DNA of 39,256 nt from positions 1-39,256 of the forward strand of contig JAKFVK010000225.1 of assembly GCA_021732205.1 (NCBI GenBank). The letters run 5' to 3'. Made by a program: the position numbers and the translations under genes. The notes beneath the pieces were generated by a model that was not told the origin of the DNA, made no database searches, and saw only the letters and a list, made by a program, of their open reading frames with translations. The DNA comes from Hyphomicrobiales bacterium (lineage in GTDB: Bacteria; Pseudomonadota; Alphaproteobacteria; Rhizobiales; UBA4765). Below, in pieces: positions 6,186-32,730 of the stretch. Numbering within the stretch: position 1 is the first letter of the stretch; the number at the start of each line of letters is the position of its first letter.

Positions 6186-6189
6186 GCTA

Positions 6190-7314: not shown

Positions 7315-7364
7315 GGGAATTTCCTCGATCAGGGCGAAATATGCTGAGTCAGATTGGGCACTTC

Positions 7365-11961: not shown

Positions 11962-11965
11962 GAAT

Positions 11966-13486
11966 TCAAGCTGTCTTCGTGATTGATGGGGTGCGCGGCA
12001 GGTCGTCATATAGCGTGACGAGCTTTTCCCATTCACTTTTCGCATTGAGCGTCGTGAGGGCTGTGATGGTGTTGTCGCGGCAGGTCTGGGCAAGAGAGGG
12101 ATCATCGATCAGCCGGTTGATCGCCTTGGCAATCGACTTCGGATCATAAGGATCAAAGGTCAGTCCGACCTTGTGGGTCTCGACCATGCGCCTGGCTTCC
12201 GGATAATCCGCCACCAAAGTCGGCAGGCCGGACGCGATGTATTCGAATATCTTGTTGGGTAGCGCATAGGTGAAATTGCGACACAGCGCGGGAAGCGTCC
12301 AGATACCTGCATCAGCACCGCGCGCGGCGGCGGCGACATCGCTGGAGGGCACGGGCCCTTCCAGGATCAGTCGATCAGATGCGCCAATGCGATCGGCGAT
12401 GGCCTGATACTCTTTCCCGAAGAGATCGAGCGACGGTCCCCGGATCACGAAAGTGCATCTGGGCGCAAAAGCCAGAGCCTCGATGATAGGCTCGATCAGG
12501 CGTGTCGATCCGGTCCCGCCTTGCCAGAGCAGCACGAACTGGCTCTCGGGCAGGCCCAGCTGCTCCTTCAGGGCAGGATACGTTTTTGTCGGTGTTGCAC
12601 TTAGGGCAGGGATATTGCGCACCACGAGAGCACGTCGCCCGGCACCCAGTTCCAGCGCGAGTGCATCCGCTATGGAGTCGCATACGGTCACCACCGCAGA
12701 TGCTTCGCGCATCAGCCTGGCTTCCAGAGCCTGCAATTCGGCTTTCCAGTCGTCCCGATAGGGTGCCCATCCTCCCTTTGCGTGGTCCCAATGGACATTT
12801 TCCGATGTCCATTCGTGGAAATCGACGACCAGATGCGCACCGGTCAGCTTTGCGATGCCAAGGCCGACATAACAGGTGTTGAGATCATGTGCATGCAGTG
12901 CAAAAAGCGGTTCGCGCCTTGCGATCTTCAATACATTCGCAAACATCAGTGCGCCTGAAAATCCGGGTCGTGCCATGATGAATGATGCCGTCTGCCAAGG
13001 CAGAAACTGAATCCTGACACCCGATCCCCAGTCCAGGCGCAAATTATCGACCTTGCCTTGTGTGGGATCCGGACAAAGCACATGAACATCATAGCCGCCG
13101 GCGGCCAGGGCACGCGCCTCGCGCTCGACCCTGGGGTCAATCCGCAGGTCCGACACGACAAGCATGAGGATTTTCTTGCCTCTGGCACGTGAACCGATGC
13201 CGGCACCATGATCAAAATATGAGGTGCGTCCCGTTTCAACCGCCTGTTCCATCCGGATACGGGCCAAATCCGATTTGTAGTGCTTGTACTGTCTGTAAAG
13301 TTTACGGGCGTAATCAACCGCAGAAAAAAATTTCAGATGTTTCAGCAGCTGAATTGCCTTCGCGCGTATCCAGGCTTTGTTGTCACGCGTGGCGATGGCG
13401 ATGAATGGATGGATCAATGGCCGCATGATCTTTGCCAGAAGCGGCATGCGCGCTGCCATGCGGGACAGGAACGATGTGATATCCAT
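11966..13486 (-). CDS. GT4-family glycosyltransferase
   Basis: A 506-residue GT4-type retaining glycosyltransferase with a basic N-terminal extension of about 100 residues, which may help membrane association. The GT-B N-domain starts at KKILMLVVSDLRIDPRVEREA, with HAHDLNTCYVG and the later DFHEW. The donor-binding domain has LLWQGGTGSTRLIEP and the C-terminal PNKIFEYIASGLPTLVADYPEA motif carrying the nucleotide-sugar-contacting glutamate. It is separated by 9 bp from the gene before and 4 bp from the gene after, so it is inside the long operon. Sugar and linkage cannot be read from the sequence. Confidence 0.88.
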   Translation of the reverse strand: MDITSFLSRMAARMPLLAKIMRPLIHPFIAIATRDNKAWIRAKAIQLLKHLKFFSAVDYARKLYRQYKHYKSDLARIRMEQAVETGRTSYFDHGAGIGSRARGKKILMLVVSDLRIDPRVEREARALAAGGYDVHVLCPDPTQGKVDNLRLDWGSGVRIQFLPWQTASFIMARPGFSGALMFANVLKIARREPLFALHAHDLNTCYVGLGIAKLTGAHLVVDFHEWTSENVHWDHAKGGWAPYRDDWKAELQALEARLMREASAVVTVCDSIADALALELGAGRRALVVRNIPALSATPTKTYPALKEQLGLPESQFVLLWQGGTGSTRLIEPIIEALAFAPRCTFVIRGPSLDLFGKEYQAIADRIGASDRLILEGPVPSSDVAAAARGADAGIWTLPALCRNFTYALPNKIFEYIASGLPTLVADYPEARRMVETHKVGLTFDPYDPKSIAKAINRLIDDPSLAQTCRDNTITALTTLNAKSEWEKLVTLYDDLPRTPSITKTA

Positions 13487-13495
13487 GGTTTAAAT

Positions 13496-15187
13496 TTACT
13501 TTCCCAAGCTTTCAGCGAGTTTAATATCCATCATTTCGCGGTAAGCCATGGCCTGCAGCGCCGTGATCCTGTCGGCTGAATGGTATTCTTTCATCCAGCG
13601 CTGTGCTGCATCTCCGCGCCCGGCGGTGTCAAGCGGATCAGCGATGACATCACGCATGGCGTTGGCGATGTCCTCGGCAGTCCCCGCATAAAAAATGGGT
13701 GGGGCCTCGCCAAAAAAACGGCGGTTCATATCCAAATCCAAATGAGAAATCAGGCGTCGTCCCAGCACCATGGTCTCAAATGACACGCCGCCCAACGCGG
13801 GCGAGCAAAACTGGTCGACCACAGCATGACTCTCAAGATAGGTTCGCCACAGTTCTTTCTTTTTCATGGCTGGCACCCATTCAACCATATCCTGGATACC
13901 GAGGTTGGTGATGAGTGATTTGCTGGCTTCTACATCAGTTCCCCATGCGACGGCTTTCAGCAGCGGGCGCGCGCCTTCATCCTTCAAGATTTTCAGGGCG
14001 TGGAAAATACGGTCATTATTCTTGGCATAACCAGGATTGGGCTTGGTCCAGTCCTGACGGGCAGGTGTAAAAAATGTGATACGCGCCGTGCTTTCTGGCG
14101 GGCTGATCCCCGTGGTTTTGGCAAAGCGAATGAGTTTCTCATCATCAAAGGCATGGGGAAGCAGGACCACATCCGAGCTCTTGATCTTTAATTTTTCTGT
14201 CGCGACGATATTGTCGGTGTTGGTCACAAAAACGCGTGCAGCGGCCTTGTAGGAGGCGGCACACAGCATCCCTTCATCCGTCGCTTCAAACGGAAGGCTG
14301 CGAATTGTGCCATGTTCATAGGCTGCATAGCAGTATTTTTCGCTACGCGCTGTGCGTCCCAGAAGAAATGGTATGGCTGTATATGTTGCATAGCACTGAA
14401 CGATATCGAATTGATTAAGCAAATGCGGCAAGAATGGGTGCAGCCAATTGCAAATTCTTACTTTAGTAAAAGCCTCATCTATTATATTTGGATTTTTGCT
14501 ATCGATGGAAGCAATTTTCACAGCTTCGATCGCGGGTTGCAAATGCTTGGCAATCAAGTGGTGACGACCTTTTAGCTCCATCGGCTGAGCATATGTGATA
14601 TGCCGCAGCAGCCTGGATAACCTGGTTTGCACTTTTTCTTCGAATTTTCCTCCAATGCGGGCTGCTAGGCCTTTGGCATATCGGGCGACAGCAATGGCAA
14701 ATGCCGCATAGGCGGGCACATAACTTCTCACCTGGCCGGGCGGACAATGTCTGACGAGCCATTCCCGTACCGTATCAGCCCTGGCGGATTTGCGGCATAG
14801 AATCCAATCTTCAATTTTCAGCACCAACCACAGGAAACTGGCGCGTCGCCTGCGCTTAACACGCGCCAAAAGATAGCGAACCGACAAATCCAGCGGCCCG
14901 GCGACGAACCATTTGGGTCGTTTAAATCCGTTGAGATTAACGCCATGCCAATCCGGATAGAACGGGTCGCCTACATCACCTTCAAAATCAGCATCTTCCC
15001 ACTCCGGCGTGGCCATGATGTGATAATATTCGAATGAAAGCACATATGCGTCAATTCCTCTTTGCCGTTGAATACGGGCATTATTATAAGCATTATTGGC
15101 GATGTTACCGATATGGAGCACCCGCAAGGGGCGGCCCAACTTTGCCTCGATGGCCTTTAGGTCGTCGTTGATGAAGGGCATGCTCAC
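13496..15187 (-). CDS. Glycosyltransferase of the LRVLHIGNIANNA type, copy 2
   Basis: A 563-residue paralog of the 7365-8933 gene. Shared segments include GRPLRVLHIGNIANNAYNN, YHIMATPEWED, FYPDWHGVNLNGF, YAAYEHGTIRSLPFE, FFTPARQDWTKPNPGYAK and GGVSFETMVLGRRLISHLD. Compared with copy 1 it has a longer middle part between about residues 110 and 260. Base composition in the middle (about 14380-14560) is clearly AT-rich. The start is GTG at 15187, overlapping the previous stop as GTGA; ATG at 15181 is an equal alternative. Presumed to add a sugar similar to that added by copy 1, at another position or repeat. Confidence 0.82.
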   Translation of the reverse strand: MSMPFINDDLKAIEAKLGRPLRVLHIGNIANNAYNNARIQRQRGIDAYVLSFEYYHIMATPEWEDADFEGDVGDPFYPDWHGVNLNGFKRPKWFVAGPLDLSVRYLLARVKRRRRASFLWLVLKIEDWILCRKSARADTVREWLVRHCPPGQVRSYVPAYAAFAIAVARYAKGLAARIGGKFEEKVQTRLSRLLRHITYAQPMELKGRHHLIAKHLQPAIEAVKIASIDSKNPNIIDEAFTKVRICNWLHPFLPHLLNQFDIVQCYATYTAIPFLLGRTARSEKYCYAAYEHGTIRSLPFEATDEGMLCAASYKAAARVFVTNTDNIVATEKLKIKSSDVVLLPHAFDDEKLIRFAKTTGISPPESTARITFFTPARQDWTKPNPGYAKNNDRIFHALKILKDEGARPLLKAVAWGTDVEASKSLITNLGIQDMVEWVPAMKKKELWRTYLESHAVVDQFCSPALGGVSFETMVLGRRLISHLDLDMNRRFFGEAPPIFYAGTAEDIANAMRDVIADPLDTAGRGDAAQRWMKEYHSADRITALQAMAYREMMDIKLAESLGK

Positions 15188-16677
15188 GGCGCCAGCCCGG
15201 CCACCGGCGGTGATGGATCACCATTCTGGACGAGGTAGGGATGGTGCCATTCCTGCGCCTGCGCAATGGTCTCGCGTGCTACTTCAATGCGCGCGCGGCT
15301 TTCCTCGACCCGGCGGGCAGTGACAGGCGGGAAATCCGCCGTGTCCTGATACATTTTCCCCAGCCGACCCGCGACCGCATCAACCGAATGCCAGCGCTCT
15401 ACATACGCGCGGCCTTGTGCGCCGATCGTTGCGAGTTTGCCCCGGTTTTCAAGGCACCAACGCAACGTCGCTTCCAGCGTGTCGGGCGTGACATTGATCA
15501 GCGGACATTCGCCCACGGCCTCGACCAGATCGGAAGAGCGGACATAGGTCAGCACAGGCTTGCCGCAGGCCATGGCCTCCAGAGCAGTGTAGCCATATGC
15601 CCCGCCGATGAACTGATCGGCGACCAAGTCCGCTTCGCCAAACAGGCGGATCACCTCGGTGTTGGGAACACCTTGAACCTTGATGTATTCGATCGCGTGG
15701 CCGGCCTGCTTCAGCCTGTCGATGGCTTCCTCCAGATAATGCGTACCCTTGAAATGCCCGTGATTGGGCGCATGGGCAATTCTGAGGGGTCCGCTCCCTG
15801 GCTTCGATGGCGCAACTGCAATCTTGTCCAGGTCAATCGGCCAGTAATGCATGCTGCGGGCTTTGGGGACGTAGGTCAGCATGTCTCCCAGCGCATTGGC
15901 GGCAGTCAGTTTTTCGCACATGCCCTGCATGATCTGAGAGCCACTCTCGTCATCGCAGATGCAGAATTTCGGGGGTTCCGGGCAGTCGCTGCAGAAATTC
16001 CATTTGCCAAGCGCCAGCGTGGCCTTGCGGCGACGGACATCGGCTCCATAGGCATAGCCATAGACACGCTTGCCGGCGGCGCGCAGCAGATCCAGTTCCA
16101 TAGGGTTGATGCCAAAGCGGGTGGCGGGGGCCATGAGGCCGCGGTCATAGAAGTAGTGAAACACATCGTAGCGCGAGATAGCCCAGGCCAGGATGAGTTT
16201 GTCGAGTGAGGGAGACAAGCCTGGCGCATATCTGGCGACGCCATTCACCAGCACCCGCAGGTTGAAGTCGAAATTGCGCGTGATGTAATAGGTTACGAAC
16301 ACCAGCGAATGACTCTTGAAGCCAAGCAACCTGTCAGCGCGTGCTTTCAGCGGTAATGTGAGGATCGGCGTCACGCCCCATAGCGTCCGCCCTTTTCCTT
16401 TTTCCAGCCGGCGCCGTGATTTTTCTGGGCCGTTGCGGACAGCCTTGTCGAGCGCGCGGGTGGACATATCCGTAGCGGCTTTGAGTGTTCTTGCCACCAA
16501 ACTGGCAGCGAGAGATCTGATCTTGTTCTCGCTGGTCCTCAAGATGCGCCAGGGCAACCTGCGCAACGAGTCGCGCAAGAACCAGTCAAGGTTGAACGAG
16601 GACAGCTTCTGAGCGGCCTTGGGAACGAAAGCACCAGATTTTTCATACCACCAGCCCTTGAGAGCCTTGACTAGCAT
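15184..16677 (-). CDS. Glycosyltransferase with CX2CX6CXC cluster
   Basis: A 497-residue glycosyltransferase distantly related to the 4175 and 10828 genes. After a basic N-terminal region it shows SRYDVFHYFYDRG (169-180) and YGADVR (210-215), the equivalents of RYDVxHYYFG and GCDAR in those two. Four cysteines follow, Cys229, Cys232, Cys239 and Cys241 (CX2CX6CXC), a likely metal-binding site. The C-terminal half has RIAHAPNHGHFKGT and GAYGYTALEAMACGKPVLTYVR, the donor-binding region. A good TGGAGAG ribosome site precedes the ATG. The gene lies 16 bp after the coiled-coil methyltransferase gene. Donor and acceptor unknown. Confidence 0.82.
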   Translation of the reverse strand: MLVKALKGWWYEKSGAFVPKAAQKLSSFNLDWFLRDSLRRLPWRILRTSENKIRSLAASLVARTLKAATDMSTRALDKAVRNGPEKSRRRLEKGKGRTLWGVTPILTLPLKARADRLLGFKSHSLVFVTYYITRNFDFNLRVLVNGVARYAPGLSPSLDKLILAWAISRYDVFHYFYDRGLMAPATRFGINPMELDLLRAAGKRVYGYAYGADVRRRKATLALGKWNFCSDCPEPPKFCICDDESGSQIMQGMCEKLTAANALGDMLTYVPKARSMHYWPIDLDKIAVAPSKPGSGPLRIAHAPNHGHFKGTHYLEEAIDRLKQAGHAIEYIKVQGVPNTEVIRLFGEADLVADQFIGGAYGYTALEAMACGKPVLTYVRSSDLVEAVGECPLINVTPDTLEATLRWCLENRGKLATIGAQGRAYVERWHSVDAVAGRLGKMYQDTADFPPVTARRVEESRARIEVARETIAQAQEWHHPYLVQNGDPSPPVAGLAP

Positions 16678-16693
16678 ATTGGCTCTCCAGTTA

Positions 16694-17698
16694 TTAGCGG
16701 CGGCGCGGTGTCATGCAATAAAACACGTGATCAAAGCCTGGTTGAGGTACAATTGTAACGTCTTCAATATCGAAATAGCGTTCGAAGAGTGGTTCAATCC
16801 ATATCCGGTCAAAATGAAACAAGTGAAATCTATCAATTGCTTTAAACTCTTGACTTTTTTCATTAAAAGGCGCGGCCCCTGGAATAGACGCCAGCCATAC
16901 GATGTATTTGCCACCTGGCTTCAATACACGATTCACCTCCCGCAAAGATGTATCTAGCGACATGACATGATCGAGCGATGTACCTGATACAACTATGTCA
17001 AACTGTGCGTCATCCCAAGGTAGGAACTCGTTGATACCACGCACCACTTCGAATGCTGCGGTCTCAAGCATAGGCAATGGCTCGAGACCGCACACCATAC
17101 AGGCCTTTCGGGTGGCCAAGTATGACGGTAGGCCGTAAGGGCCACAACCAATGTCCAGAATGCGACCATGGGCATATATCTCCAGATAACATCCAAACAA
17201 CTGTGCGTATTTTTGCTCGCGGTGGCTGCAACTGCCTAGTCGCTCCTCGACATAGCCCTTGGCCCCATTTTCGAACAACTCCCGCCAAACTGGATAGAGC
17301 GCGGGATTGAGCGCTTCGAGACGACGCAGGCTTTCCTCAATGGGCAGCTGTTTTGAAGGCTTAAAAATGGGAGCCTTTATTTCTAATTCTGATCGTAATC
17401 TCGCTGAGCGTGCATGCAACCCCGCAATAACCAGTGAATTGATCTTAGCTGAGGCAACATCGAAAAATTGCTGCTCAATCGCGGATTGCGGTAACAAGAG
17501 ACTCTGATGCAGCTTCGCGTCATGCTGTATAAGCTGCTGTTCAAGCCTCTGTGCGCGTAGTTCATTTTGTGTCTGATAAAATTTTGCTTGCGTGCTGAAC
17601 TCCTCGAGCCGAATGATAACCGCCTCGTAGGAAGCTTGCATCCGGGTCAAGGCCGGAGCGGTCACCCACTCAAGAAAACGATTCATAAATCCAGCCAT
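16694..17698 (-). CDS. SAM-dependent methyltransferase with N-terminal coiled coil
   Basis: A 334-residue protein. Residues about 15-110 are helical and rich in Gln, Glu, Leu and Arg with heptad-like spacing, suggesting a coiled coil. A class I methyltransferase domain follows: ILDIGCGPYGLPSYLA as motif I, FDIVVSGTSLDHV as the post-II region and EVNRVLKPGGKYIVWLASIPG. It lies 3 bp after wzt and has a GAGG ribosome site. Placement beside a Wzt with a C-terminal binding domain makes a chain-terminating methyltransferase plausible, by analogy with WbdD, though no kinase domain is present. AT-rich compared with the neighbouring ABC genes. Confidence 0.82.
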   Translation of the reverse strand: MAGFMNRFLEWVTAPALTRMQASYEAVIIRLEEFSTQAKFYQTQNELRAQRLEQQLIQHDAKLHQSLLLPQSAIEQQFFDVASAKINSLVIAGLHARSARLRSELEIKAPIFKPSKQLPIEESLRRLEALNPALYPVWRELFENGAKGYVEERLGSCSHREQKYAQLFGCYLEIYAHGRILDIGCGPYGLPSYLATRKACMVCGLEPLPMLETAAFEVVRGINEFLPWDDAQFDIVVSGTSLDHVMSLDTSLREVNRVLKPGGKYIVWLASIPGAAPFNEKSQEFKAIDRFHLFHFDRIWIEPLFERYFDIEDVTIVPQPGFDHVFYCMTPRRR

Positions 17699-17701
17699 GA
17701 A

Positions 17702-19120
17702 TTAGTCCTCGGCTAATGGTCGATTTTCGAAAATGGCATGCGGAAAAAAAACTGCTCCAGAAGCATAGCCAGCAGGAATAATGCGGATGCGATAAGTCCG
17801 ATGCCGATATTCATAGAACTCAACATGTCCAGGGATATTGGGCAGCAATCCGACCGAAATAAGATAGTCCCCTTCCATCAATTGAAGCTCGCCAAGATCA
17901 ACAATAAACTGGCCGACCTTTGCTGCGCGCCTCAGGCCTTGAGAATTGGCAATATCGCGTGCGTCATGCCCGGAAGGATTGATCGTTGAAAACTGCGCAA
18001 CCAGCAAAAGGTCGCGCTCTCGCTCAATGCCAATCGCGAGCCCGAGATTTTCGACAGGGGCATCTCCATCACAATGATAATCAACGCAAATGGAAAACTT
18101 ATCCCAGGTGCGGAACATCGTTTCCAACTGACTTGGCCCGGACAAAAATCGCACACTGTCGATAAATACAGGCCCTCGCCGATAGACCGGAATGGTCGCC
18201 GGATCGGGCTCGCTCACTTCCGGCAAAGATGACGCGTCTGCTTGTGCCTGCTCTTCCGGTTGCAAAGTTTCCTGGGCATGTGCAGCGCCGGATGCTGCCG
18301 TCTCGTCGACGATCTCTACAATCTGGCCAAGCTGGTTGGATATGCGCTGATGCACGCTATAATCATAGCGCCGCGTCACGTCCCGCGCGTTGCCGATATC
18401 ACGAAGTTCGCCATGCTCGATCCAGATAGCCTTGTCGCAAAGCTGCGCGACTTGACCCGTGCCGTGGCTAACGAACAGTACAGTTGCTCCAGAATCGCAG
18501 ATTTCACGGATGCGCTTCATGCACTTGGAAACAAAATAGCTGTCACCTGCCGCCAGGGCCTCGTCGACAATGAACACCTCGGGGTCCGCAGAAATGGCGG
18601 TGGCGAATGTCAGCCTCGCCGCCATACCGCTGGAATAGGTGCGGAAGGGCTCGTCGATCACATGACCCAGCTCGCTGAACTCAATGATCCACGGAATCTT
18701 CGCCTCGATCTCGGCGCGGCTCATGCCCATGCAAAGTCCGCCGGTGACGATGTTTTCACGCCCCGTGAAATCCGGGTGGAAGCCTGTGCCCAGCTCCAGG
18801 ATGGCCGAGATGCGGCCATTGATTTTCACATCCCCTGTAGTTGCGTCGAGCAGGCCCGTGATGATTTTCAGCAGAGTACTCTTGCCTGAGCCATTGGGGC
18901 CGATGATGCCGACGATGCTGCCACGCGGCACGTCAAACGAAATGTCCTGCAGCACCCATTTGTCCCGGTGCAGGCTCTTGCGGCTCCAGATCTCGCGCAG
19001 CAGGTCGCTGTTGCGCTCATAAATCTTGTAGGCCTTACCGACATTGCGCACGCTGATCGCAAGGTCATCGGGGTTCAATGACGGAGGGTCTGTTCTGGAT
19101 GTTGGGTCGGTCATGCTCAT
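17702..19120 (-). CDS. wzt: Polysaccharide ABC exporter ATP-binding protein with C-terminal glycan-binding domain
   Basis: The ATPase of a Wzm/Wzt-type polysaccharide exporter, at the cytoplasmic face of the inner membrane. Taking ATG 19120, 4 bp after the permease stop, it has 472 residues. Walker A GPNGSGKST is at about 74-82, the signature YSSGMAARL at 162, Walker B VFIVDEALAAGD at 182 and the switch histidine in FVSHG at 219. After an acidic, Ala/Glu-rich linker, residues about 300-460 form an extra beta-rich domain like the Wzt C-terminus that recognises the modified chain end. Its presence suggests export of a capped chain. A 491-residue start at 19177 overlaps the permease and is less likely. 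Confidence 0.93.
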   Translation of the reverse strand: MSMTDPTSRTDPPSLNPDDLAISVRNVGKAYKIYERNSDLLREIWSRKSLHRDKWVLQDISFDVPRGSIVGIIGPNGSGKSTLLKIITGLLDATTGDVKINGRISAILELGTGFHPDFTGRENIVTGGLCMGMSRAEIEAKIPWIIEFSELGHVIDEPFRTYSSGMAARLTFATAISADPEVFIVDEALAAGDSYFVSKCMKRIREICDSGATVLFVSHGTGQVAQLCDKAIWIEHGELRDIGNARDVTRRYDYSVHQRISNQLGQIVEIVDETAASGAAHAQETLQPEEQAQADASSLPEVSEPDPATIPVYRRGPVFIDSVRFLSGPSQLETMFRTWDKFSICVDYHCDGDAPVENLGLAIGIERERDLLLVAQFSTINPSGHDARDIANSQGLRRAAKVGQFIVDLGELQLMEGDYLISVGLLPNIPGHVEFYEYRHRTYRIRIIPAGYASGAVFFPHAIFENRPLAED

Positions 19121-19124
19121 ATCT

Positions 19125-20003
19125 TTACAGAACGTTGCCAAGGAAGGGCTTGATCTTGCGGAAGACCAAAAGCCCACCCAGAAAGGCAGCTGCTGTCATG
19201 GCCGTAAAAACGACCCAGGCAAAACCATGCTCGATGCGACCGAAAAAGATCACGTCCTGATACACCCAGACCACATAGCTCAGCGGATTGAGATACAGCA
19301 CTGGCCGGATCATGGCAGGCACCCAGTCCGGCAGATACACCGCTGGCGTGAAATACATCGCTACCACTAGATAAATGCCGACAAATTCCCGTATGTCACG
19401 CATGAAAGGCGTGATCACGGAAAGAATCAGCATCAACCCCAGCGCAAACACCATGTGCATGCCAAGCACCACAGGCAGCAGCAGGATGAAGAGAGAGAGG
19501 CCGCCGCCAAAGATGAGCTTATAGCCCAGAAGCAGCACAAGGCAGGGAATGTAAATCATGAAACAGGCCGCAACCCCAGCCACAGGCAGGATTTCAACCG
19601 GAAACACCACCTGCTTTACCAGATTGGCATGTGTGGCAAATAGCGAAGGTCCGCGCCCCAGTGCATTTGAGGTGATTAGCCAAGGCACAAGCCCAGCCAG
19701 GATATAGCTGGTGTAGTCCCCAGGGAAAGTGTTGGTGACCGCCATCTTGGCGCCGATCACCACGCCAAAGATTAGCATGAAAGTCAGCAGCACGACGATG
19801 GGCTGGACATAGACCCAAATGGTGCCAAGCCCATGCCCGGCAAAGCCGCTTTTCAGGTCCCGCGTCATCATTTCGGCCAGTAGGCCGCGGTTGCGGAAGG
19901 CTGTCCAGACAAAGTCGGATACCATGTTCAGGAGGCTAGATGCTGGCTGGGGTGCATGGGCCGACTGTGGCGCTTGGCGCGGCATGGTGTTCTCTTCGCT
20001 CAC
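19125..20003 (-). CDS. wzm: Polysaccharide ABC exporter permease
   Basis: A 292-residue ABC-2-type permease with a cytoplasmic N-terminus (residues 1-45), the family motif FRNRGLLAEMMTRDLKSGFAGHGLG and about six transmembrane helices (first around VQPIVVLLTFMLIFGVVIGA, last around WVVFTAMTAAAFLGGLLVF). It pairs with the ATPase encoded 4 bp downstream to move lipid-linked polysaccharide across the inner membrane. The start is a GTG that overlaps the preceding amidotransferase stop as GTGA and has GAGG 7 nt upstream. Confidence 0.92.
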   Translation of the reverse strand: MSEENTMPRQAPQSAHAPQPASSLLNMVSDFVWTAFRNRGLLAEMMTRDLKSGFAGHGLGTIWVYVQPIVVLLTFMLIFGVVIGAKMAVTNTFPGDYTSYILAGLVPWLITSNALGRGPSLFATHANLVKQVVFPVEILPVAGVAACFMIYIPCLVLLLGYKLIFGGGLSLFILLLPVVLGMHMVFALGLMLILSVITPFMRDIREFVGIYLVVAMYFTPAVYLPDWVPAMIRPVLYLNPLSYVVWVYQDVIFFGRIEHGFAWVVFTAMTAAAFLGGLLVFRKIKPFLGNVL

Positions 20004-21871
20004 AGGTAGGCCTCACAAAACTGTTCGAGATTGAGCAGGGACCAGATCAGCAGGCGGCGGTTCTGGCGGCCTTCGAGATGGTCGTCGATGAGCGAGCGTA
20101 CCGCTTTCGCATCCAGATAATCATAGATGCGAGCGCGGTCGTTGAGCAGTCGACGCTTCACATAGTCGATGCTTTCACCCTTGAACCAGCTGGCATCAGG
20201 AGCGGAGAAACCTTGTTTCTCGCGTTCGGCAATCTGTGCAGGAATATGCCGCGCCATCATATCGCGCAGGATCAGTTTGCCATCACGTGTTTTCTCGAAA
20301 TAGCGCTGCGACTTGCCGCCAGGCTCGTTCTCGTTGAGGCGCACAACCTCGGTGAGATTGCCCAGTTTCATGCGCGCCGGAAGCCGCATGGCGAAATCGA
20401 CGAGATCATTGTCCAAAAAGGGCACGCGGCCTTCCAGCCCATGCGCCATGGCAAGCTTGTCATCGACGATCAGCAGGCCGTTGAGAAATGTCTTGGCCTC
20501 GAAATAGAGCGAATGATTGATGTAGTCCTCGGGCCGTGTCAGCTCATGGGCATGGTCCTGAAACACGCCGCGAAAGATTGCCATCGGGTCGGTGGCGCTG
20601 GCCTGGTTCCAGACCGGTGACATCACGCTGGCAAGCGTATCGGTCGGGATCAGTCGCTGCCAGAAGCCATAATATTTTTCGACGTAATGATCGAAATCAT
20701 CGTTCACGACGGCGCGGTAATAGCGCCACGGATATCCAGCAAAGAGTTCGTCCCCGCCCGTCCCGGACAAGACGACCTTGACGAATTTGGAGGCAAGCTT
20801 GGCTGCATACCAGTTCGGGTAGCATTGGCCAACGCGTGGCTCCTCGAGGTGCCAGGCGAGGCGGGGGATCGCCCGCTCCATATCGCCTGCCTTCAACACC
20901 ATCTCGTAATGCTCTGTCTTGAACAGATACGACATGTGTTCTGCCTTCGCGCGCTCGTCATAACCAAGTTCGACGCCAGAGGCCGAGTTGAGGTCGAAAC
21001 CCACGGTAAACGTCCGCATGAAGGGTAGCTGCTGGGCAGCAAGGGCCGTGATTGAGCCTGAATCCATACCGCCCGAGAGATATGCACCCACATCGACATC
21101 GGAAATCATCTGGCGTGAAACCGCCTGACGGAACAGATGGTCGAGTTCGTCCATAGCGTCCGCTTGGCTTAATGCCTGCTCGGGCTCTTGAAAGTGAAAG
21201 TCCCAATAGCGCTGTGGGGCAGGCGGCGCGCGTCCTTCCTCAATCTGGATGTAGCAGCCGGCAGGTAAAAGCTTCACGTCAGCAAACAATGTGTCATCAG
21301 AGAAGAAATTCTGGAACGTGAGATATTCGGCCAGACCACCGATATTCATCCTCGTCGTGAATTCCGGATAGCCGCGAAAAGCCTTGATCTCTGAGGCAAA
21401 GAGAAACGTGCCATCCACCTGCGTGTAATAAAGTGGCTTCACGCCAAATCGGTCACGTGCGATTGTGAGCTTTCTCGTCTGTCTGTCCCAGACACCGAAG
21501 GCAAACATGCCGTTGAGTTTGTAGAGCGCGGACAGGCCCCATTCGAGGAAGGCAGTGAGCAGGACTTCGCTGTCTCCGCTCGAATGAAACAGGTGCCCGC
21601 GCGCCGACAGATCAGCTTTCAATTCCTGAAAATTGTAGATTTCGCCATTATAGGTCAGCACATAACGCCCGTCGCGCGTCGTCATCGGCTGGCGTGCGGC
21701 ATCCGTGAGATCAATGATCGACAGCCGCCGGTGACCAAGCCCGATTGGTCCGTCGCGGTAATGGCCTTCACCATCAGGCCCGCGATGGGCGATGAGATCC
21801 GTCATTGCCTTGAGCGATACCGGAGAGGCTGGGCGGCCATCCCGGTGGAACATGCCTGCAATACCGCACAT
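20000..21871 (-). CDS. asnB: Asparagine-synthase-like glutamine amidotransferase, copy 2
   Basis: A 623-residue enzyme of the same build as copy 1: Cys2 glutaminase nucleophile, AHRGPDGEG (28-36), YNGEIYNF, then an ATP-pyrophosphatase domain with SGGMDSG (266-272; the usual final Ser is Gly) and SGTGGDELFAGYPWRYY. It forms amides from carboxylates with glutamine as nitrogen donor. It sits between the sugar epimerase and the ABC exporter, so a uronic acid residue of the chain is a likely substrate. It diverges widely from copies 1 and 3 outside the motifs, arguing for separate specificities and not a recent duplication. The ATG at 21871 places Cys at position 2 as the mechanism demands. Confidence 0.9.
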   Translation of the reverse strand: MCGIAGMFHRDGRPASPVSLKAMTDLIAHRGPDGEGHYRDGPIGLGHRRLSIIDLTDAARQPMTTRDGRYVLTYNGEIYNFQELKADLSARGHLFHSSGDSEVLLTAFLEWGLSALYKLNGMFAFGVWDRQTRKLTIARDRFGVKPLYYTQVDGTFLFASEIKAFRGYPEFTTRMNIGGLAEYLTFQNFFSDDTLFADVKLLPAGCYIQIEEGRAPPAPQRYWDFHFQEPEQALSQADAMDELDHLFRQAVSRQMISDVDVGAYLSGGMDSGSITALAAQQLPFMRTFTVGFDLNSASGVELGYDERAKAEHMSYLFKTEHYEMVLKAGDMERAIPRLAWHLEEPRVGQCYPNWYAAKLASKFVKVVLSGTGGDELFAGYPWRYYRAVVNDDFDHYVEKYYGFWQRLIPTDTLASVMSPVWNQASATDPMAIFRGVFQDHAHELTRPEDYINHSLYFEAKTFLNGLLIVDDKLAMAHGLEGRVPFLDNDLVDFAMRLPARMKLGNLTEVVRLNENEPGGKSQRYFEKTRDGKLILRDMMARHIPAQIAEREKQGFSAPDASWFKGESIDYVKRRLLNDRARIYDYLDAKAVRSLIDDHLEGRQNRRLLIWSLLNLEQFCEAYL

Positions 21872-21902
21872 GTGGCTTCAGTCCGTTCTGTCGGAGGGCT
21901 GT

Positions 21903-21922
21903 TTGATCAGGTCCCTGATCAA
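21903..21922. repeat. Perfect 8-bp inverted repeat between epimerase and amidotransferase genes
   Basis: TTGATCAG and CTGATCAA flank a 4-nt spacer in the 64-bp gap between two operon genes. No T tract follows on the minus strand, so it is not a standard terminator; it may be an mRNA processing or stabilising hairpin. Confidence 0.5.
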
Positions 21923-21935
21923 GGTGTCGTAAGGC

Positions 21936-22931
21936 TCATGTGGCAGCCTTGGCGCGGCGCTGCGCGACCTGCTCAATATGATCTTTGCGCCATTGGATCA
22001 GGCGCTTCAATCCTTCCTCCAGATCGATCTTTGCGGTAAAGCCAATTTCCTTGGTGGCACGGACCGGGGAGCCGATGCGATTTCGCACCAGAGTGGCCTG
22101 GCTGCGTGGTGCATAGTTGATCGGCTGATTGGAGCCGGTGAGGTTAAGCAGTTTTTCTGCCACTTCCTTCAGCGAGGTACGCTTGCCGGTGCCGACATTG
22201 TAGAAGCGGTCGGTCGCGTCTGATTTCATGGCGCAAAGATTTGACGCGGCGCAATCCTCGACGGCGACGAAATCGAACGCCTCCGAGCCATCTCCCATGA
22301 TGGTCGGTCCCTCGCCCTTATCGATCGCATCGAGCATCTTCATGATGACGGCAATATAGGCGCCGCGATAATCCTGGCGCGGCCCGTAGACGTTCATATA
22401 GCGCAGACCGACAAAATCGAGTCCGTAGCGGAAGTGATAGGCGCGAGCCATGGCTTCACCGCAGATCTTGGTCGCGCCGTAGAAATTCTTGTTGTTGAAC
22501 GGATGATCCTCCGTCATCGGCTCTTCCACGGCGTCGCCGTATACGGACGCCGAAGACGACCATACCAGCCGTTTCACGCCGTTGCGTACGCAGCCATCGA
22601 GCACGTTGAACATGCCGCGGACATTGGTTTCGAAAGCGGTGCGTGGATATTCGTGGCATTGCAGTAGCCAAAGCGCGGCGAACTGGAAGACGCCATCCAC
22701 ACCCTTCATGGCCGCATCGAGGATGTCAGTCTGGGTGATATCGCCACCAGCTTCGAAGATCTTCACGCGCGGATCTTTCAGAGCGTGTTCGAGATTGGCA
22801 GTCGTGCCGCGGACGAAGTTGTCATAGATGACAATTTCGCCAACATCCTCCTTCGTCAGCTGGTCCACCGCATGCGAGCCGATCAGCCCGGCACCGCCAA
22901 TGACCAGTACGCGCTTGCCCTTGAGTTCCAT
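21936..22931 (-). CDS. NAD-dependent nucleotide-sugar epimerase (extended SDR)
   Basis: A 331-residue cytoplasmic enzyme of the UDP-glucose 4-epimerase/dehydratase type. It has the Rossmann motif GGAGLIGSH (about 13-21), YDNFVRG binding NAD ribose, SSSASVYGD as the catalytic Ser region, the intact Tyr-Lys pair in FYGATK, and LRYMNVYGPRQ. The exact nucleotide sugar cannot be deduced; a C4 epimerisation supplying a galacto-configured sugar is a reasonable guess. It is the first recognised gene of the long unit and has GAAGGA 8 nt before its ATG. A very long leader of about 630 nt precedes it if the promoter at 23564-23612 is used. Confidence 0.87.
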   Translation of the reverse strand: MELKGKRVLVIGGAGLIGSHAVDQLTKEDVGEIVIYDNFVRGTTANLEHALKDPRVKIFEAGGDITQTDILDAAMKGVDGVFQFAALWLLQCHEYPRTAFETNVRGMFNVLDGCVRNGVKRLVWSSSASVYGDAVEEPMTEDHPFNNKNFYGATKICGEAMARAYHFRYGLDFVGLRYMNVYGPRQDYRGAYIAVIMKMLDAIDKGEGPTIMGDGSEAFDFVAVEDCAASNLCAMKSDATDRFYNVGTGKRTSLKEVAEKLLNLTGSNQPINYAPRSQATLVRNRIGSPVRATKEIGFTAKIDLEEGLKRLIQWRKDHIEQVAQRRAKAAT

Positions 22932-23560
22932 GTTTCAAATCCTTCAATTTCACCCGTTTGCCGGGATTGAGTTGAATTGTGTTCATTTTCTGTGACTTGG
23001 AATAACCCAGACGACATGCGATAAGCGCAGCACCGGAGCACGATTACAGCTCGCCGCCGCCGTCGTGCGCAGGTTTGACCGCCCTTGGTGCCTGAGCCGT
23101 GTCGTGACACAGTCTCTATCCCTGACATGCTCGGACCGTCGAGTGCTCCGGCAAAACACATGGGCGTCATTTGACGTCTCGTGGCGTCGCGCTTCACCTT
23201 CGGCTCCAGTGTCACTCAATAAGATCGATGCCATCAGACGAGTAGCGTGGAGCCGGCGGTACGTGCACCAACCTCTCCCGGCGGTCGTCGCTGCGCCACG
23301 AAACGCCCAGCCGATAGGGCGCGCGCGCTGCGTGACGGTGGTGCGTCGCCATGAAACACCAGCTGCGAAGGTCGACAGATGCTGGGTTTCCAGCCAGCAG
23401 GCGTGCCTAACGGACAAAAACATATGCCGTGTCCCTACAGAAGCGCGACCGGCAGGCGTCGCGGTAACTATCTGGGGGTGCGTCGTTGCTAACGCCTCTT
23501 TGAGGTCTTTCAATAGCCCGATATCCGCCGTCGGCTGCAACTGGTTTTGCCATCATAGTT
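22932..23560 (-). other. About 630-nt presumed leader upstream of the export operon
   Basis: No recognised protein is encoded on either strand. Minus-strand frames include one of 185 codons starting with TTG at 23540 and one of about 48 codons starting ATG-ATG at 23556; neither has a familiar sequence or a clear ribosome site. GC-rich self-complementary stretches are present, for example GCTGG/CCAGC around 23380-23397. I interpret it as an untranslated leader, possibly structured, because a promoter matching that of the regulator gene lies just upstream. Confidence 0.45.
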
Positions 23561-23563
23561 GGC

Positions 23564-23612
23564 TCGTTAGCATGTTCAGCGCATGAACGTCAAATATGTT
23601 CATGGCATGAAC
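23564..23612 (-). promoter_or_regulatory. Promoter with twin operator dyads, copy A (export operon)
   Basis: On the minus strand TTGACG (23593-23588) serves as -35 and an extended TGC-TAACGA (-10 TAACGA, 23569-23564) as -10. Between them lies dyad 1, GTTCA-N5-TGAAC (23574-23588). Dyad 2, again GTTCA-N5-TGAAC (23598-23612), is centred 24 bp upstream. A 27-nt block covering the -35, dyad 1 and the start of the -10 is identical in copy B, upstream of the winged-helix regulator. Regulator binding is inferred. Confidence 0.65.
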
Positions 23613-23848
23613 GACGACGCATGATCCGCATTTCCCACCATTACGGTGAGGGAAATATCTCGCCCGGCAAGTCAGAGCTCTTCACGCCATCCAGTCCGAT
23701 TTATGTGAACGTCGTCTCTTCCGCCTGTGCCCCGTTTTGACGGCATAAAACACCTTGTCCTTAGCTTGCTGTGCCTGGGTATCGCCATGCAGGTGTTTTT
23801 TATTGTAGTACATCCACCATACGGGAGGGCTTGCTGGGCAAGCAAAAT
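23613..23848. other. Intergenic stretch downstream of the third amidotransferase gene
   Basis: No gene recognised. It contains a 9-bp inverted repeat AAAACACCT/AGGTGTTTT with a 35-nt loop (23747-23799), and a 6-bp stem GCTTGC-TGG-GCAAGC (23829-23843) six bases beyond the amidotransferase stop. Neither is followed by a strong T tract on the minus strand, so the transcript end is uncertain. Confidence 0.45.
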
Positions 23849-25750
23849 TCAAACCCCTACCCCAAAACGCTCGCCCCAGATGCCAAGATTGACGATGCGC
23901 CACAAAGTGAAATCAAGTGCGCGGCGCCCCTCCATCATGTCGCTGGCAAGCGCACGTACGCCGCCGGGATTCAATAGTCCAGGATAACGACGCATAGTGG
24001 CCTCGACGCCTTCGGTCACCAGATCGCGCAACGGGCCACGAAACCAGATTTGCTCTGGCGTGGCGAAACCGAGCTTGTCGCGGCGATCGCGCACCATATC
24101 CGGCAAAATGCCCGACATGCCCCGGCGCAGCACGCGCTTCGTGTCACCGCCGACAATCTTGTGATCATTGCCAAGCGCAAGGCAGAACTCGACCAAAGGA
24201 TGGTCAAGAAACGGCACACGCGCCTCGATCGAATGGGCCATGGAATTGCGATCCTCCCAATGCAGCAGCATAGCGAGGTTCGAACCGTAGGTCAGAGTGA
24301 GGCAAAGGCTGCGAAGGTCGGTCGGCGCCGGCAGCCCGAGCAGATCGCCGGCAAGCTCGACCGGACCTTTGCCGGTATTGCCGCGCTCGCGCAGCATATC
24401 GGTGCCAAGCCAGTCATGCTGAGCAATTGTCTGGCGACCGCGACGCAGCAGCCGCGAGACGGCGTTTGGCAGGAGTGGCACGACATGGCGCGCCAATTGT
24501 TCGGTGATCGGCGTGCCATGGTAGCGCCTGCGCTCGAAGATGGTGCGCGTGAGCTGGCCGAATTTGCCGCGTCGCGTCAGATCGGCCATATAATAGCTGA
24601 AGCCGCCATGATAGCCGGATAGTTGTTCGTCCGCGCCCTGGCCATCGAGCATGACTTTGACGCCGACGCGTTTTGCTTCCTCGAACACGCACCACTGCGC
24701 GAAAATCGAGGTTGAACCAAATGGTTCGTCCTGGTGCCAGGTGATGTCGGAGGCTTTCTGAAAAACATCCTCCGCCCTGGGAAAAATGAAATGCGGCTCC
24801 GTGTGGGCGTGGGCGACCACCGCGTCCATGAATGGTTTTTCGTCAACGCTTTTTTCTGTGTAGCAGGCTGACACTGTGTTGACCCTGGCGCCCGCAGTGC
24901 TCTGGCGCAAAAGCGGTGCCATCAGGCAGACAATTGCAGACGAATCGAGCCCTCCCGACAGACAGGAGCCAACCGGTACGTCCGAGCGCAGATGCAGACG
25001 TACGGCGTCACTGAGCAGGTCACGAAATTGCTCGGCGGCCTCGCTTTCGCTTATGGAAAGCGTGCCAGCTGTCGCAGGATACCAGCGCGTGATCTTGGCT
25101 TGCAGCGGCAAGCCCTGCCCGGCCTCAACAATGATGTATTCACCGCCGCGCACCTGGCTGATATCAGCGAACATCGTCTCTGAGGTGTGATTGGCGATAC
25201 CAGCGGCAAGAAAATCATGCACGCGGGCAACATTCATCCGTCCGCTCAGGCCAGGCAAACCATGCAATTGCTTGATTTCCGATGCGAGCGCCAGGCCGTG
25301 CGCCGTCTGGGCCAAATAAAGCGGCTTGATGCCATAGCGGTCGCGCGCGGCGAACAGGCGCTGGTCGCGCTCGTCCCAGATGATGACTGCAAACATGCCG
25401 CGCAGGCGATCGAGCGCTGCAGACCCCCAGAGCATATAGGCGCGCAGCAACACTTCCGAATCCGACTGCGTGACAAACACCTCGCCCTTGGCCCGCATCT
25501 CGTCGCGCAGTTCAAGGTAGTTATAGATCTCGCCGTTAAACACCATGTGGAAGCGACCGGTCGCATCACTCATCGGCTGATGGCCGGCCTCGGACACGTC
25601 GATGATCGCAAGACGCCGATGGCCAAGCGCGACCGGCCCGAGCGATGATGCAAACTCCTGCCACCCACGCCCGTCAGGACCGCGATGGGCGACGATATCG
25701 ATCCGGGCCGGGTCTGGTGCGAAGCGGATGGAGGCGAACAGGCCGCACAT
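23849..25750 (-). CDS. asnB: Asparagine-synthase-like glutamine amidotransferase, copy 3
   Basis: A 633-residue amidotransferase. The class II glutaminase has AHRGPDGRG, FNGEIYNY and DSEVLLRAY; the synthetase domain has SGGLDSS (265-271), LDGQGADEQLSGYHGGF and a C-terminal RVPFLDHPLVEF. The ATG at 25750 is preferred to the one at 25753 because only it puts the nucleophilic cysteine second, as autoprocessing requires. That ATG shares its A with the wbpI stop, so the two are coupled. Expression together with the 2-epimerase suggests that the product of that pathway, a diacetamido-mannuronic acid, or the polymer made from it, may be the carboxylate that is amidated. This is inference. Confidence 0.9.
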   Translation of the reverse strand: MCGLFASIRFAPDPARIDIVAHRGPDGRGWQEFASSLGPVALGHRRLAIIDVSEAGHQPMSDATGRFHMVFNGEIYNYLELRDEMRAKGEVFVTQSDSEVLLRAYMLWGSAALDRLRGMFAVIIWDERDQRLFAARDRYGIKPLYLAQTAHGLALASEIKQLHGLPGLSGRMNVARVHDFLAAGIANHTSETMFADISQVRGGEYIIVEAGQGLPLQAKITRWYPATAGTLSISESEAAEQFRDLLSDAVRLHLRSDVPVGSCLSGGLDSSAIVCLMAPLLRQSTAGARVNTVSACYTEKSVDEKPFMDAVVAHAHTEPHFIFPRAEDVFQKASDITWHQDEPFGSTSIFAQWCVFEEAKRVGVKVMLDGQGADEQLSGYHGGFSYYMADLTRRGKFGQLTRTIFERRRYHGTPITEQLARHVVPLLPNAVSRLLRRGRQTIAQHDWLGTDMLRERGNTGKGPVELAGDLLGLPAPTDLRSLCLTLTYGSNLAMLLHWEDRNSMAHSIEARVPFLDHPLVEFCLALGNDHKIVGGDTKRVLRRGMSGILPDMVRDRRDKLGFATPEQIWFRGPLRDLVTEGVEATMRRYPGLLNPGGVRALASDMMEGRRALDFTLWRIVNLGIWGERFGVGV

Positions 25751-26808
25751 CAATGCTGCCCCACATGGCTGCGGATGGCGTCGAGAACCCGCGCGGCCGC
25801 ATCACCCGCGCCGTAATCGTCGATGTCGCGCCGTGGTGATACCCAATCAGGAGCGGTCCACAGACGATTCCAGCCGTGCGAAATCGTCTCGACCCATTCG
25901 GTTTCGTCGCGAAGCGTGATGCAGGGCCGGCGGGCGAAATAGGCTTCCTTCTGCAAGCCACCGGAATCCGTCATCACCAGCGCCGCGCCGTCGATGAGCC
26001 GCGCCATATCGATGGCGCCAACGGGATCGATGATCCGGATCGCACCGCTCTCGACACCGCTCCTGGCGAGAGCATTGCGCGTGCGCGGATGGATCGGCAA
26101 TACGATCGGGCGCCCTTGGGCTTCATTGATGATTGTCGCCATCACGCGCGCCAAGCGCGTTGGATCATCCGTGTTTTCGGCGCGATGAATGGTAGCGAGG
26201 ACATAACCACCTTCGGACAAGGCGCTTGTGGCAAGAATGGTCGACTGTAGGCGCGCGCGCGCCATGGCGAACATCATCGCATCGCACATGACGTCGCCGA
26301 CATGATGCACGCCCTCGACAATCCCCTCGCGCGTCAGATTGTCGATACCTGTCCGGGTCGGGCTGAGCAGCAGCGTCGAGAGGTGATCAACCAGCACCCG
26401 GTTCACCTCTTCCGGCATGCGCCGGTTAAACGAGCGCAACCCCGCCTCGACATGAACAATTGGAATATGCAGTTTGGAGGCGGCGAGCGCGCCGGCGAGC
26501 GTGGAATTGGTGTCACCATAAACCAGCACCCAATCGGGGCGGTGTTTGAGCAGCGCGCCCTCGACCGCCTCGAGCATACGCCCGGTCATGGCGCCGTGAT
26601 GGCCACCGTGAATGCCGAAATGCTCGTCGGGCGCGGGGATATCGAGTTCACGAAAGAACACGTCCGACATCATATCGTCGAAATGCTGTCCAGTGTGAAC
26701 GAGTATCTCTTGAAAATCGCCGCTGGCGCGGATGGCGCGACTGACCGCCGCAGCCTTGATGAATTGCGGGCGGGCGCCGACCACCGTGAGCAAGGTGATG
26801 CGGCTCAT
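25750..26808 (-). CDS. wbpI: Non-hydrolysing UDP-sugar 2-epimerase, probable WbpI
   Basis: A 352-residue epimerase of the UDP-GlcNAc 2-epimerase superfamily: GARPQFIKAAAVSRAI at the N-terminus, HTGQHFDDMMSDVFF, VYGDTNSTLAGALAA, HVEAGLRSFNRRMPEEVNR, and the C-terminal DSGGLQKEA. It could be WecB (UDP-GlcNAc to UDP-ManNAc). I prefer WbpI, which converts UDP-GlcNAc(3NAc)A to UDP-ManNAc(3NAc)A, because wbpA, wbpB, wbpD and wbpE are all present in this locus and no WecC-type partner other than wbpA is seen. It starts one base into the stop of the regulator gene. Confidence 0.85.
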   Translation of the reverse strand: MSRITLLTVVGARPQFIKAAAVSRAIRASGDFQEILVHTGQHFDDMMSDVFFRELDIPAPDEHFGIHGGHHGAMTGRMLEAVEGALLKHRPDWVLVYGDTNSTLAGALAASKLHIPIVHVEAGLRSFNRRMPEEVNRVLVDHLSTLLLSPTRTGIDNLTREGIVEGVHHVGDVMCDAMMFAMARARLQSTILATSALSEGGYVLATIHRAENTDDPTRLARVMATIINEAQGRPIVLPIHPRTRNALARSGVESGAIRIIDPVGAIDMARLIDGAALVMTDSGGLQKEAYFARRPCITLRDETEWVETISHGWNRLWTAPDWVSPRRDIDDYGAGDAAARVLDAIRSHVGQH

Positions 26809-27443
26809 CAGCCATCGCTCACAGGTGATGCATGGCCAAGCATCAGCATGGCCGGCGCCAGAACCGCGCGCGGACCAAACGCCGCGACCAGCGCATCATG
26901 CTGGCCCTGCGCATCATCGATGGCGGTAATGATCCATCCATCCGGCGGCGGGTGGACGGCTTGCGCGCTGGCAACCACCGCCACGCCCATCACATGGGAG
27001 CGGCTCATGCCGGCATCGGCCAGCCCCGCGACCGTCATGCCCTGTTCGGCGGCGGCCAGAATGGCGATCTCCGCCAGATCACTGCCGCCGGCAAGGCCGA
27101 CGCTGCCCCAGCCGCGCGCCTGCGCCACGCCGATCACCGCCGCGCAATCCATCCGCGCCCGCCGGAAAAACGTCAGCGACCAGGAAAGATACTCGGCCGT
27201 CAGGCGTGATTTTTCGGCAAAGCCTTGCGGCGTGAGATAATAGGCATAACGGCGCGAGGGTACTTCCTGAACCTTGATCAGGCCCTTCTTCACGCAGCGC
27301 TTGATGTAGGTGTTGACCAGGCCCAGCGCCACGCCCAGCTCCGAGGCGAGTTTGCGCTGCGAGACCTGCGCCTCGCGCTCCACCGAGGCCAGCAGCCCCG
27401 CAATATGGCGGCGCTCATCCTCGCTGCCGGCAATATCAACCAT
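26808..27443 (-). CDS. Winged-helix transcriptional regulator with extra C-terminal domain
   Basis: A 211-residue protein. Residues about 10-75 form a winged helix-turn-helix (SQRKLASELGVALGLVNTYI, then VKKGLIKVQEVPSRRYAYYLT) like the EPS-associated MarR-type regulators of polysaccharide loci. Residues about 95-205 form a second domain with a Rossmann-like beginning (CAAVIGVAQARGWGSVGLAGG) that could bind a nucleotide or nucleotide sugar. It heads the unit that makes WbpI and an amidotransferase, and its own promoter carries a dyad shared with the export operon. Autoregulation and control of both units is likely but not shown. Activator or repressor action cannot be told, though a dyad between -35 and -10 favours repression. 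Confidence 0.8.
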   Translation of the reverse strand: MVDIAGSEDERRHIAGLLASVEREAQVSQRKLASELGVALGLVNTYIKRCVKKGLIKVQEVPSRRYAYYLTPQGFAEKSRLTAEYLSWSLTFFRRARMDCAAVIGVAQARGWGSVGLAGGSDLAEIAILAAAEQGMTVAGLADAGMSRSHVMGVAVVASAQAVHPPPDGWIITAIDDAQGQHDALVAAFGPRAVLAPAMLMLGHASPVSDG

Positions 27444-27497
27444 TACCGCGCCGCCTCATCGAGCTTGATCGTTTCCGAAGCCATCGGCATGGAGGCT

Positions 27498-27546
27498 CGC
27501 CTAGCATGTTCAGCGCATGAACGTCAAACGAGTTCAAGGCAAATGC
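27498..27546 (-). promoter_or_regulatory. Promoter with operator dyads, copy B (regulator operon)
   Basis: The minus strand has TTGACG (27527-27522) as -35 and TAGGCG (27503-27498) after TGC as a weak -10, with the dyad GTTCA-N5-TGAAC (27508-27522) between them. A second, degenerate dyad (27532-27546) is centred 24 bp upstream, as in copy A. The expected transcript starts near 27491, about 48 nt before the regulator ATG. Confidence 0.65.
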
Positions 27547-27616
27547 TTGCTGGCATGACACAGGCGGAGTGCTTGGTTTTTCCTCTATTGGTGAAGGCGC
27601 CCCAAGACGGCGTGTG

Positions 27617-27652
27617 GGTAAAGCCGGATTGCGTCACTCGGCCGGCTTTACC
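27617..27652 (-). terminator. Hairpin at the end of the wbpA-to-glycosyltransferase unit
   Basis: A perfect 11-bp stem (GGTAAAGCCGG with CCGGCTTTACC, 14-nt loop) lies 34 bp beyond the stop of the minus-strand glycosyltransferase and before the regulator promoter. No T run follows, so it may stabilise the 3' end or act as a weak terminator. Confidence 0.5.
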
Positions 27653-27685
27653 GCCACCTTTTGTTACAAAGGTGCGTTGGTAGGC

Positions 27686-31152: not shown

Positions 31153-31754
31153 GATGCAATTTCCTCAAGACGACCTTCGGAAGTTTCGCGATAGCGTACC
31201 CCCGTTTCCGGGCAAACAAGCTGCTTGTCAAGCTTGACGCCGGCGCGGCTCATCCAGCCGATACGGCGCGCCGGGACGCCGGCCATCAGGGCGAAATCGG
31301 GGACATCTGCGGTGATAACCGCGCCCGCCGCGATGAATGAGTATGCCCCCAACGTGTGACCGCAGACAATCGTCGCGTTGGCGCCGATGGTGGCGCCCGT
31401 CTTGACCAGCGTCCGGCGAAATTGCGATTTCCGGCTGATGAAGGCGCGCGGGTTATTGACGTTGGTGAAGACGCAGGACGGGCCGCAAAACACGCCGTCC
31501 TGCAATTCAACGCCGTCATAGAGCGCGACATTGTTCTGGATCTTGCACTGGTCGCCGACGCGTACGCGGGGCCCGATCATCACGTTCTGGCCGATGATGC
31601 AATCGCGCCCGATCGTGACGTCGGACAACACATGGCAGAAATGCCAGATCCGTGTTCCCCTGCCGAGACTTGCTCCCTCGTCCACGTAGGAACTTTCGTG
31701 AACAAGCACGTCAGGAAAGCGCTGATCTTCACGCATTTGCGAGGCGACGGCCAA
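31149..31754 (-). CDS. wbpD: Hexapeptide-repeat N-acetyltransferase, probable WbpD
   Basis: A 201-residue left-handed beta-helix acetyltransferase. Hexapeptide turns run from about residue 18 to 150 ([52 protein letters not shown]). The family marks [11 protein letters not shown] and [10 protein letters not shown] are present; the short tail has a CPETG motif. WbpD acetylates the 3-amino group of UDP-GlcNAc(3NH2)A with acetyl-CoA, which fits its place next to wbpE and wbpB. It lies 5 bp after wbpB. Confidence 0.92.
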
Positions 31755-31759
31755 TGCAG

Positions 31760-32716
<957 letters not shown>

Positions 32717-32730
32717 TTATTCCAGTTCTT

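Follow-up and report, generated by a model that had tools for sequence, protein, structure and literature searches.

The window, i.e. the whole 39,256-nucleotide stretch of DNA from a Hyphomicrobiales bacterium that was analysed, contains two operons that concern us here. In operon B the gene of a putative regulator is followed by those of a UDP-GlcNAc 2-epimerase and an amidotransferase. The second is a 13-gene export unit comprising an epimerase, two amidotransferases, a Wzm/Wzt ABC exporter, four glycosyltransferases, two methyltransferases, one gene without a Pfam match and a second epimerase. The unit contains paralogues (the amidotransferases 9300-10762 and 20391-21805, and the glycosyltransferases 8143-8855 and 14286-15136) with 76-83% DNA identity in blocks, and there are three asparagine-synthase-type amidotransferases in the wider cluster. 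The genes of 25750-34347 encode a UDP-sugar dehydrogenase, a Gfo/Idh dehydrogenase, a hexapeptide acetyltransferase, a DegT aminotransferase and the 2-epimerase, and look like a UDP-ManNAc3NAcA-type pathway. The features are collected in the table.

Features of the regulator and export operons, with positions in the window
Feature	Position	Strand	Evidence
13-gene co-directional export unit	5310..22931	-	ORFs, profile searches
Leader, ~630 nt	22932..23563	-	no coding periodicity; neither a family nor a homologue matched
Putative -10 CTAACG of promoter A, weak	23565..23570	-	sequence; aligned promoters
Operator A2, GTTCATGCGCTGAAC dyad in promoter A spacer	23574..23588	-	window dyad scan, repeat alignment
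-35 TTGACG of promoter A	23588..23593	-	sequence; module search in genomes
Operator A1, upstream dyad GTTCATGCCATGAAC with both halves intact, 24 bp from A2	23598..23612	-	window dyad scan
Amidotransferase of asparagine-synthase type; final gene of operon B	23849..25753	-	profile searches
UDP-GlcNAc 2-epimerase gene (WecB/WbpI-like), overlaps regulator stop	25750..26808	-	profile searches
Regulator, winged helix (PF13412; MarR_EPS-like) with Rossmann-like C-terminal domain	26808..27443	-	profile and structure matches
Putative -10 CTAGGC of promoter B, 17-nt spacer, weak	27499..27504	-	sequence; aligned promoters
Operator B2, GTTCATGCGCTGAAC dyad that occupies the whole spacer between -35 and -10 in promoter B, that of the regulator	27508..27522	-	dyad scan; module aligned in relatives
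-35 TTGACG of promoter B	27522..27527	-	sequence; TTGAC-dyad contact in aligned promoters
Operator B1, degenerate upstream half-dyad	27532..27546	-	sequence; tandem dyads of relatives
Hairpin 3' of the upstream operon (27686-34347), parting that operon from promoter B	27617..27652	-	z -2.4 for 27605-27680

A sequence-only reading of the window had singled out two blocks with 27 identical bases that include TTGACG, a dyad located between -35 and -10, and the first part of the -10. These are indeed an exact repeat (TAGCATGTTCAGCGCATGAACGTCAAA, 23568-23594 and 27502-27528) containing TTGACG, the dyad GTTCA-N5-TGAAC and the beginning of a weak -10. The alignment extends to 40 bp with 36 identical positions (90%; 23568-23607 and 27502-27541), and the complete blocks (23564-23612 and 27498-27546, termed copies A and B) have 37 of 49 bases in common. 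There are just three exact GTTCA-N5-TGAAC sequences in the window, at 23574-23588, 23598-23612 and 27508-27522. When two mismatches are allowed the numbers in the window scan are those expected by chance, so weight is placed on the exact sites only. A candidate third site at 34583 (GTTCAGGGCATGCAA), upstream of the UDP-sugar dehydrogenase gene, was rejected on this basis, having two mismatches and no TTGAC.

In both copies a second dyad lies upstream, 24 bp start-to-start from the downstream dyad. It is intact in copy A and degenerate in copy B as had been noted; read on the plus strand, the sequence at B1 (GTTCAAGGCAAATGC) keeps the left half and has lost the right. The remainder of the 2.1-Mb host assembly contains two exact dyads (C12 and C32), one within a coding start and one next to a terminator as judged by reading the sequence. 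Neither adjoins TTGAC and we discounted both as looking like chance occurrences; the assembly is only 56% complete, so more sites may be missing from it.

On the minus strand both copies have the order TTTGACG-TTCATGCGCTGAAC-ATGCTA, and the dyad thus fills a spacer of 17 nt. The -35 is good in both promoters, the -10 weak; in a sigma-70 consensus scan no promoter passed, and the -10 of promoter B was missed. The regulator ATG follows 59 bp downstream of copy B. The two modules had been described as pointing on the minus strand into the regulator gene and the 13-gene unit, and this orientation stands, with the qualification that copy A is separated from the first gene of the unit by ~630 bp. 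The intervening leader is either decayed DNA or an untranslated leader. We considered whether copy A might be the relic of a duplicated regulator gene, and discarded this because the DNA similarity extends over ~48 bp only and coding periodicity is lacking in the leader. Nor is the leader acceptable as a decayed RfaH-like gene, the match against the window reaching an E of only about 1. The hairpin beyond promoter B lacks a T-run.

The regulator is a protein of 211 amino acids. The winged helix-turn-helix PF13412 is matched at 34.6 bits, above the Pfam gathering threshold of 21.9. Its sole NCBIfam match is MarR_EPS (TIGR04176) at 63.9 bits (E 1.2e-17); this falls short of the curated cut-off of 88 bits, and the protein should therefore be filed as MarR_EPS-like. 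The locus shares with TIGR04176 its occurrence in polysaccharide biosynthesis clusters. A Rossmann-like fold is predicted for the C-terminal domain at very high model confidence (pLDDT 96), for which the best matches in the PDB are UDP-glucose 6-dehydrogenases, at a weak level (E 2e-3, TM 0.64), while the winged helix is of low confidence in the full-length model. No close relative was found in a sequence search of solved structures. The Rossmann-like domain may conceivably sense a nucleotide or nucleotide sugar, and any such ligand is a guess.

Orthologous regulators were collected at 80 loci from 84,980 species genomes, and every possible 5-bp palindrome upstream of the gene was enumerated, with no motif named beforehand. 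The top-ranking dyad was GTTCA-N5-TGAAC, present at 73 of 80 loci; in matched control windows no dyad was found at more than 4 loci. Allowing up to one mismatch, the dyad is found upstream of the regulator at all 79 of the testable loci (those with enough upstream sequence), and at 65 of these it forms a tandem pair with a spacing of 22-33 bp. Plasmid-borne relatives that were fetched once the motif had been fixed have it in six of six cases. Conservation of a dyad in the promoter of the gene itself, the characteristic of an autorepressor family, is thus seen at the 79 loci and in the six later cases. The spacing of the pair in the relatives is 22-29 bp, rarely 33, with 27-28 the most common. 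A separation of 24 bp had been taken to represent two helical turns; the distance and its presence in both copies are correct, and since the spacing varies between relatives it does not correspond to a fixed helical phase.

Alignment of the promoters on the last dyad gives the common form CTTGAC-GTTCA(T/C)NNN(A/G)TGAAC-N3-(C/G)TA. In 52 of the 81 promoters aligned, TTGAC is immediately next to the last dyad. In 18 more it is located 27-29 bp before the last dyad, i.e. one dyad earlier; here it is the first dyad that takes up the spacer, with the second just past the -10. In both layouts the spacer is occupied by one palindrome. The TA at the -10 position is kept in about two thirds of the aligned promoters.

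The distribution of the module was analyzed over 298 genomes of one order, taken to be Hyphomicrobiales from contigs in common with named Bradyrhizobium records; 18 of these genomes have a full-length regulator. The promoter-dyad module TTGACGTTCA-N5-TGAAC occurs at 12 sites in nine genomes from several families, and the tandem dyad pattern in six; reversed control patterns are found in none of the 298. All nine module genomes and all six tandem genomes are among the 18 that carry the regulator, giving hypergeometric P values of about 1e-12 for the module and 2e-8 for the tandem pattern, although these overstate the independence of the genomes, which are related. The proposed test of whether dyad pairs in genomes go with the regulator was therefore positive. 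The suggestion that the blocks are the operator of the encoded regulator is likewise supported, and they very probably serve as such given the 79 of 79 relatives and the restriction of the module to genomes with the full-length protein.

In most of 25 regulator-bearing genomes the dyad is present only at the promoter of the regulator itself, or at one or two further places. The module is not scattered through genomes, and the same position is kept in distant orders. The extra sites that were read are intergenic, mostly with TTGAC adjoining the dyad. They precede genes for polysaccharide synthesis, as predicted: an asparagine-synthase-type amidotransferase, DegT and class-III aminotransferases, an epimerase, a NeuD-like acetyltransferase, PseB dehydratase, a NodU-type carbamoyltransferase, WbuX amidotransferase and Gfo/Idh. 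In Bosea sp. Leaf344 the regulator is directly followed by an epimerase (93% identical), an amidotransferase (86%), Wzm and Wzt, and these are the genes that lie behind copy A in the window. Several Bradyrhizobium genomes have a separate module for an amidotransferase like that behind copy B. The same gene set is thus kept under the operator in different arrangements, and no other observation argues more strongly for a functional copy A.

The dyad extends to more distant members of the family. It is present upstream of 15 of 19 MarR_EPS genes of the short form that belong to other orders and classes, in several of which it overlaps the -10/+1 region in a repressor-like position, and upstream of none of five genes with weak, unrelated HTH matches. 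One family of Alphaproteobacteria has the MarR_EPS winged helix at the head of reading frames of ~700 residues, and here the upstream dyad is GTTCA-N4-TGAAC in 11 of 11 cases (L142-L152); the gap of four or five nucleotides thus tracks the protein subfamily. Two genomes (L170 and L171) have GGTCA-N5-TGACC, together with an altered recognition helix in which AKGLANSYFNRC replaces ALGLVN-YLKRC. The tandem pair and the module therefore follow the regulator, and the operator covaries with the recognition helix; a widespread regulator family very probably has this motif as its self-operator.

We consider it highly probable that the dyads are promoter-operators bound by the regulator, providing both autorepression and control of the export operon. 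A dimer would bind each GTTCA-N5-TGAAC palindrome. The downstream palindrome is placed exactly between the -35 and -10, so that its occupancy should block RNA polymerase; the upstream palindrome 24 bp away should assist by tandem or cooperative binding. At copy B the regulator would repress its own operon, i.e. the regulator, UDP-GlcNAc 2-epimerase and amidotransferase genes, while copy A would place the ABC-exporter and glycosyltransferase operon under the same control. Both palindromes of copy A are intact, so it is perhaps the more tightly controlled. Release would probably be brought about by a small molecule that binds the Rossmann-like domain and might be a nucleotide or nucleotide sugar from the pathway. 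Some observations count against this scheme as a whole, i.e. the score below the MarR_EPS cut-off, the weak -10 elements, the lack of a sigma-70 match, the ~630 bp between copy A and the first gene, and the low-confidence model of the winged helix.

Direct binding of the dyads by the regulator is the most secure part of the scheme and is almost certain on the comparative evidence. Operon neighbors can be regulated by third parties, and so another DNA-binding protein might use the dyads with the regulator no more than a bystander. However, the presence of the module follows the regulator over the 298 genomes, the dyad changes along with the recognition helix, and several branches of the family keep it in differing gene contexts, making this very improbable. 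Exact identity over 27 bp inside 4 kb could also arise from a recent functionless duplication, or from a mobile or structural element. Yet the identity ends at the edges of the module (~48 bp), and the same module at the same position in distant orders, without scattering, contradicts such an origin, to which we give almost no credence. As the dyad is matched in nearly every relative, the regulator very probably binds both blocks and co-controls its own genes and those of the export unit.

The sign of the regulation is less certain. The regulator might bind the dyads and activate, or be a dual regulator with a ligand-dependent effect, the weak -10 needing help from it. The combination of a strong TTGAC with a weak -10 would suit such a role, and an intact dyad is often located just upstream of the -35, a usual place for an activator. 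Against this, in most relatives a dyad lies within the spacer, and in the short forms it coincides with the -10 or follows it closely; a protein bound at either location usually obstructs polymerase. Moreover the spacer has a normal length, so that a MerR-type distortion is not needed. We regard activation as unlikely, and the position of the dyads indicates that the regulator is likely to be a repressor.

Classical autorepressors of the MarR and TetR types bind as a dimer to a palindrome between the -35 and -10, and control their own gene and a neighboring operon. The window shares the palindrome in the spacer, and by our interpretation the control of gene and neighbor. The regulator differs in belonging to another subfamily, with tandem dyads, a putative nucleotide-binding sensor domain and a position at the head of large polysaccharide operons. 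Compared with MarR_EPS, the winged-helix domain, the polysaccharide gene context and the upstream GTTCA half-site are the same, whereas the short forms of TIGR04176 stop after ~113 residues and the protein of the window has the additional Rossmann-like domain. The LexA box of the alphaproteobacteria is the direct repeat GTTC-N7-GTTC. It has the GTTC half and 7-bp gap in common with the window sites, but these are inverted repeats (GTTC-N7-GAAC) at three of three positions, so that the orientation is wrong for a LexA operator.

We searched the literature by family name, model number and operator string; no description of the operator was found in the open-access papers covered, where absence is not proof. 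MarR_EPS is widely annotated, and its DNA site, target set and signal were not found in that literature. The specificity of the operator is sufficient for mapping the regulon of any genome, and for selecting inducing ligands using a reporter. One of the ~700-residue frames was scanned (L143:1468-3288), and in this the winged helix is fused to a bifunctional ATP-sulfurylase/APS-kinase (PAPS synthetase); such a protein may be a DNA-binding trigger enzyme concerned with sulfated polysaccharide. This allows a broader and distinctly speculative view that would combine a single operator code (GTTCA-N4/5-TGAAC), a sensor-swapped family and gating by precursor supply. In a Pseudomonadota family of this kind the winged helix would be joined to nothing, to a Rossmann-like domain or to a whole PAPS synthetase. 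The fused forms would each monitor how much of an activated sugar or sulfate precursor is available and act as a gate on the initiation of polysaccharide operons; in many cases an RfaH-like factor would be the partner that gates elongation.

An RfaH/NusG-like gene is found directly behind the regulator at 72 of the 80 loci (L014-L093), about 600-1120 bp after the regulator start. A survey of RfaH/NusG paralogues (mBio 2020, PMC7593976) describes one RfaH cluster associated with an HTH regulator, and the neighborhood seen here is possibly that association; the passage concerned names neither this regulator nor an operator. It appears to be a general arrangement that polysaccharide operons combine both an initiation repressor and an elongation factor at their head. 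In the window no RfaH-like gene was found beside the regulator (best match E about 1); the closest orthologue locus also lacks one, and Bosea (L015) has only a remnant. The gene is lost in the lineage of the window, which has just the initiation half of the combination. The operator opens the study of combined initiation and RfaH-type elongation control in operons for capsule, O-antigen and exopolysaccharide, among them the operons of Bradyrhizobium. The ops-like sequence GCGGTAGC is absent from the coding strand in the window, and a true GCGGTAGC is present in 3 of 77 long-form leaders. GCGGTAG-like bases following the dyad were considered as an ops element and rejected, being located at the -10, with true GCGGTAGC rare in the long-form leaders. 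In the short-form leaders of Rhodobacterales and others (L197-L201 and L172-L176) an ops-like GCGGTAGC often lies between the dyad and the start codon, which suggests recruitment of an RfaH-type factor.
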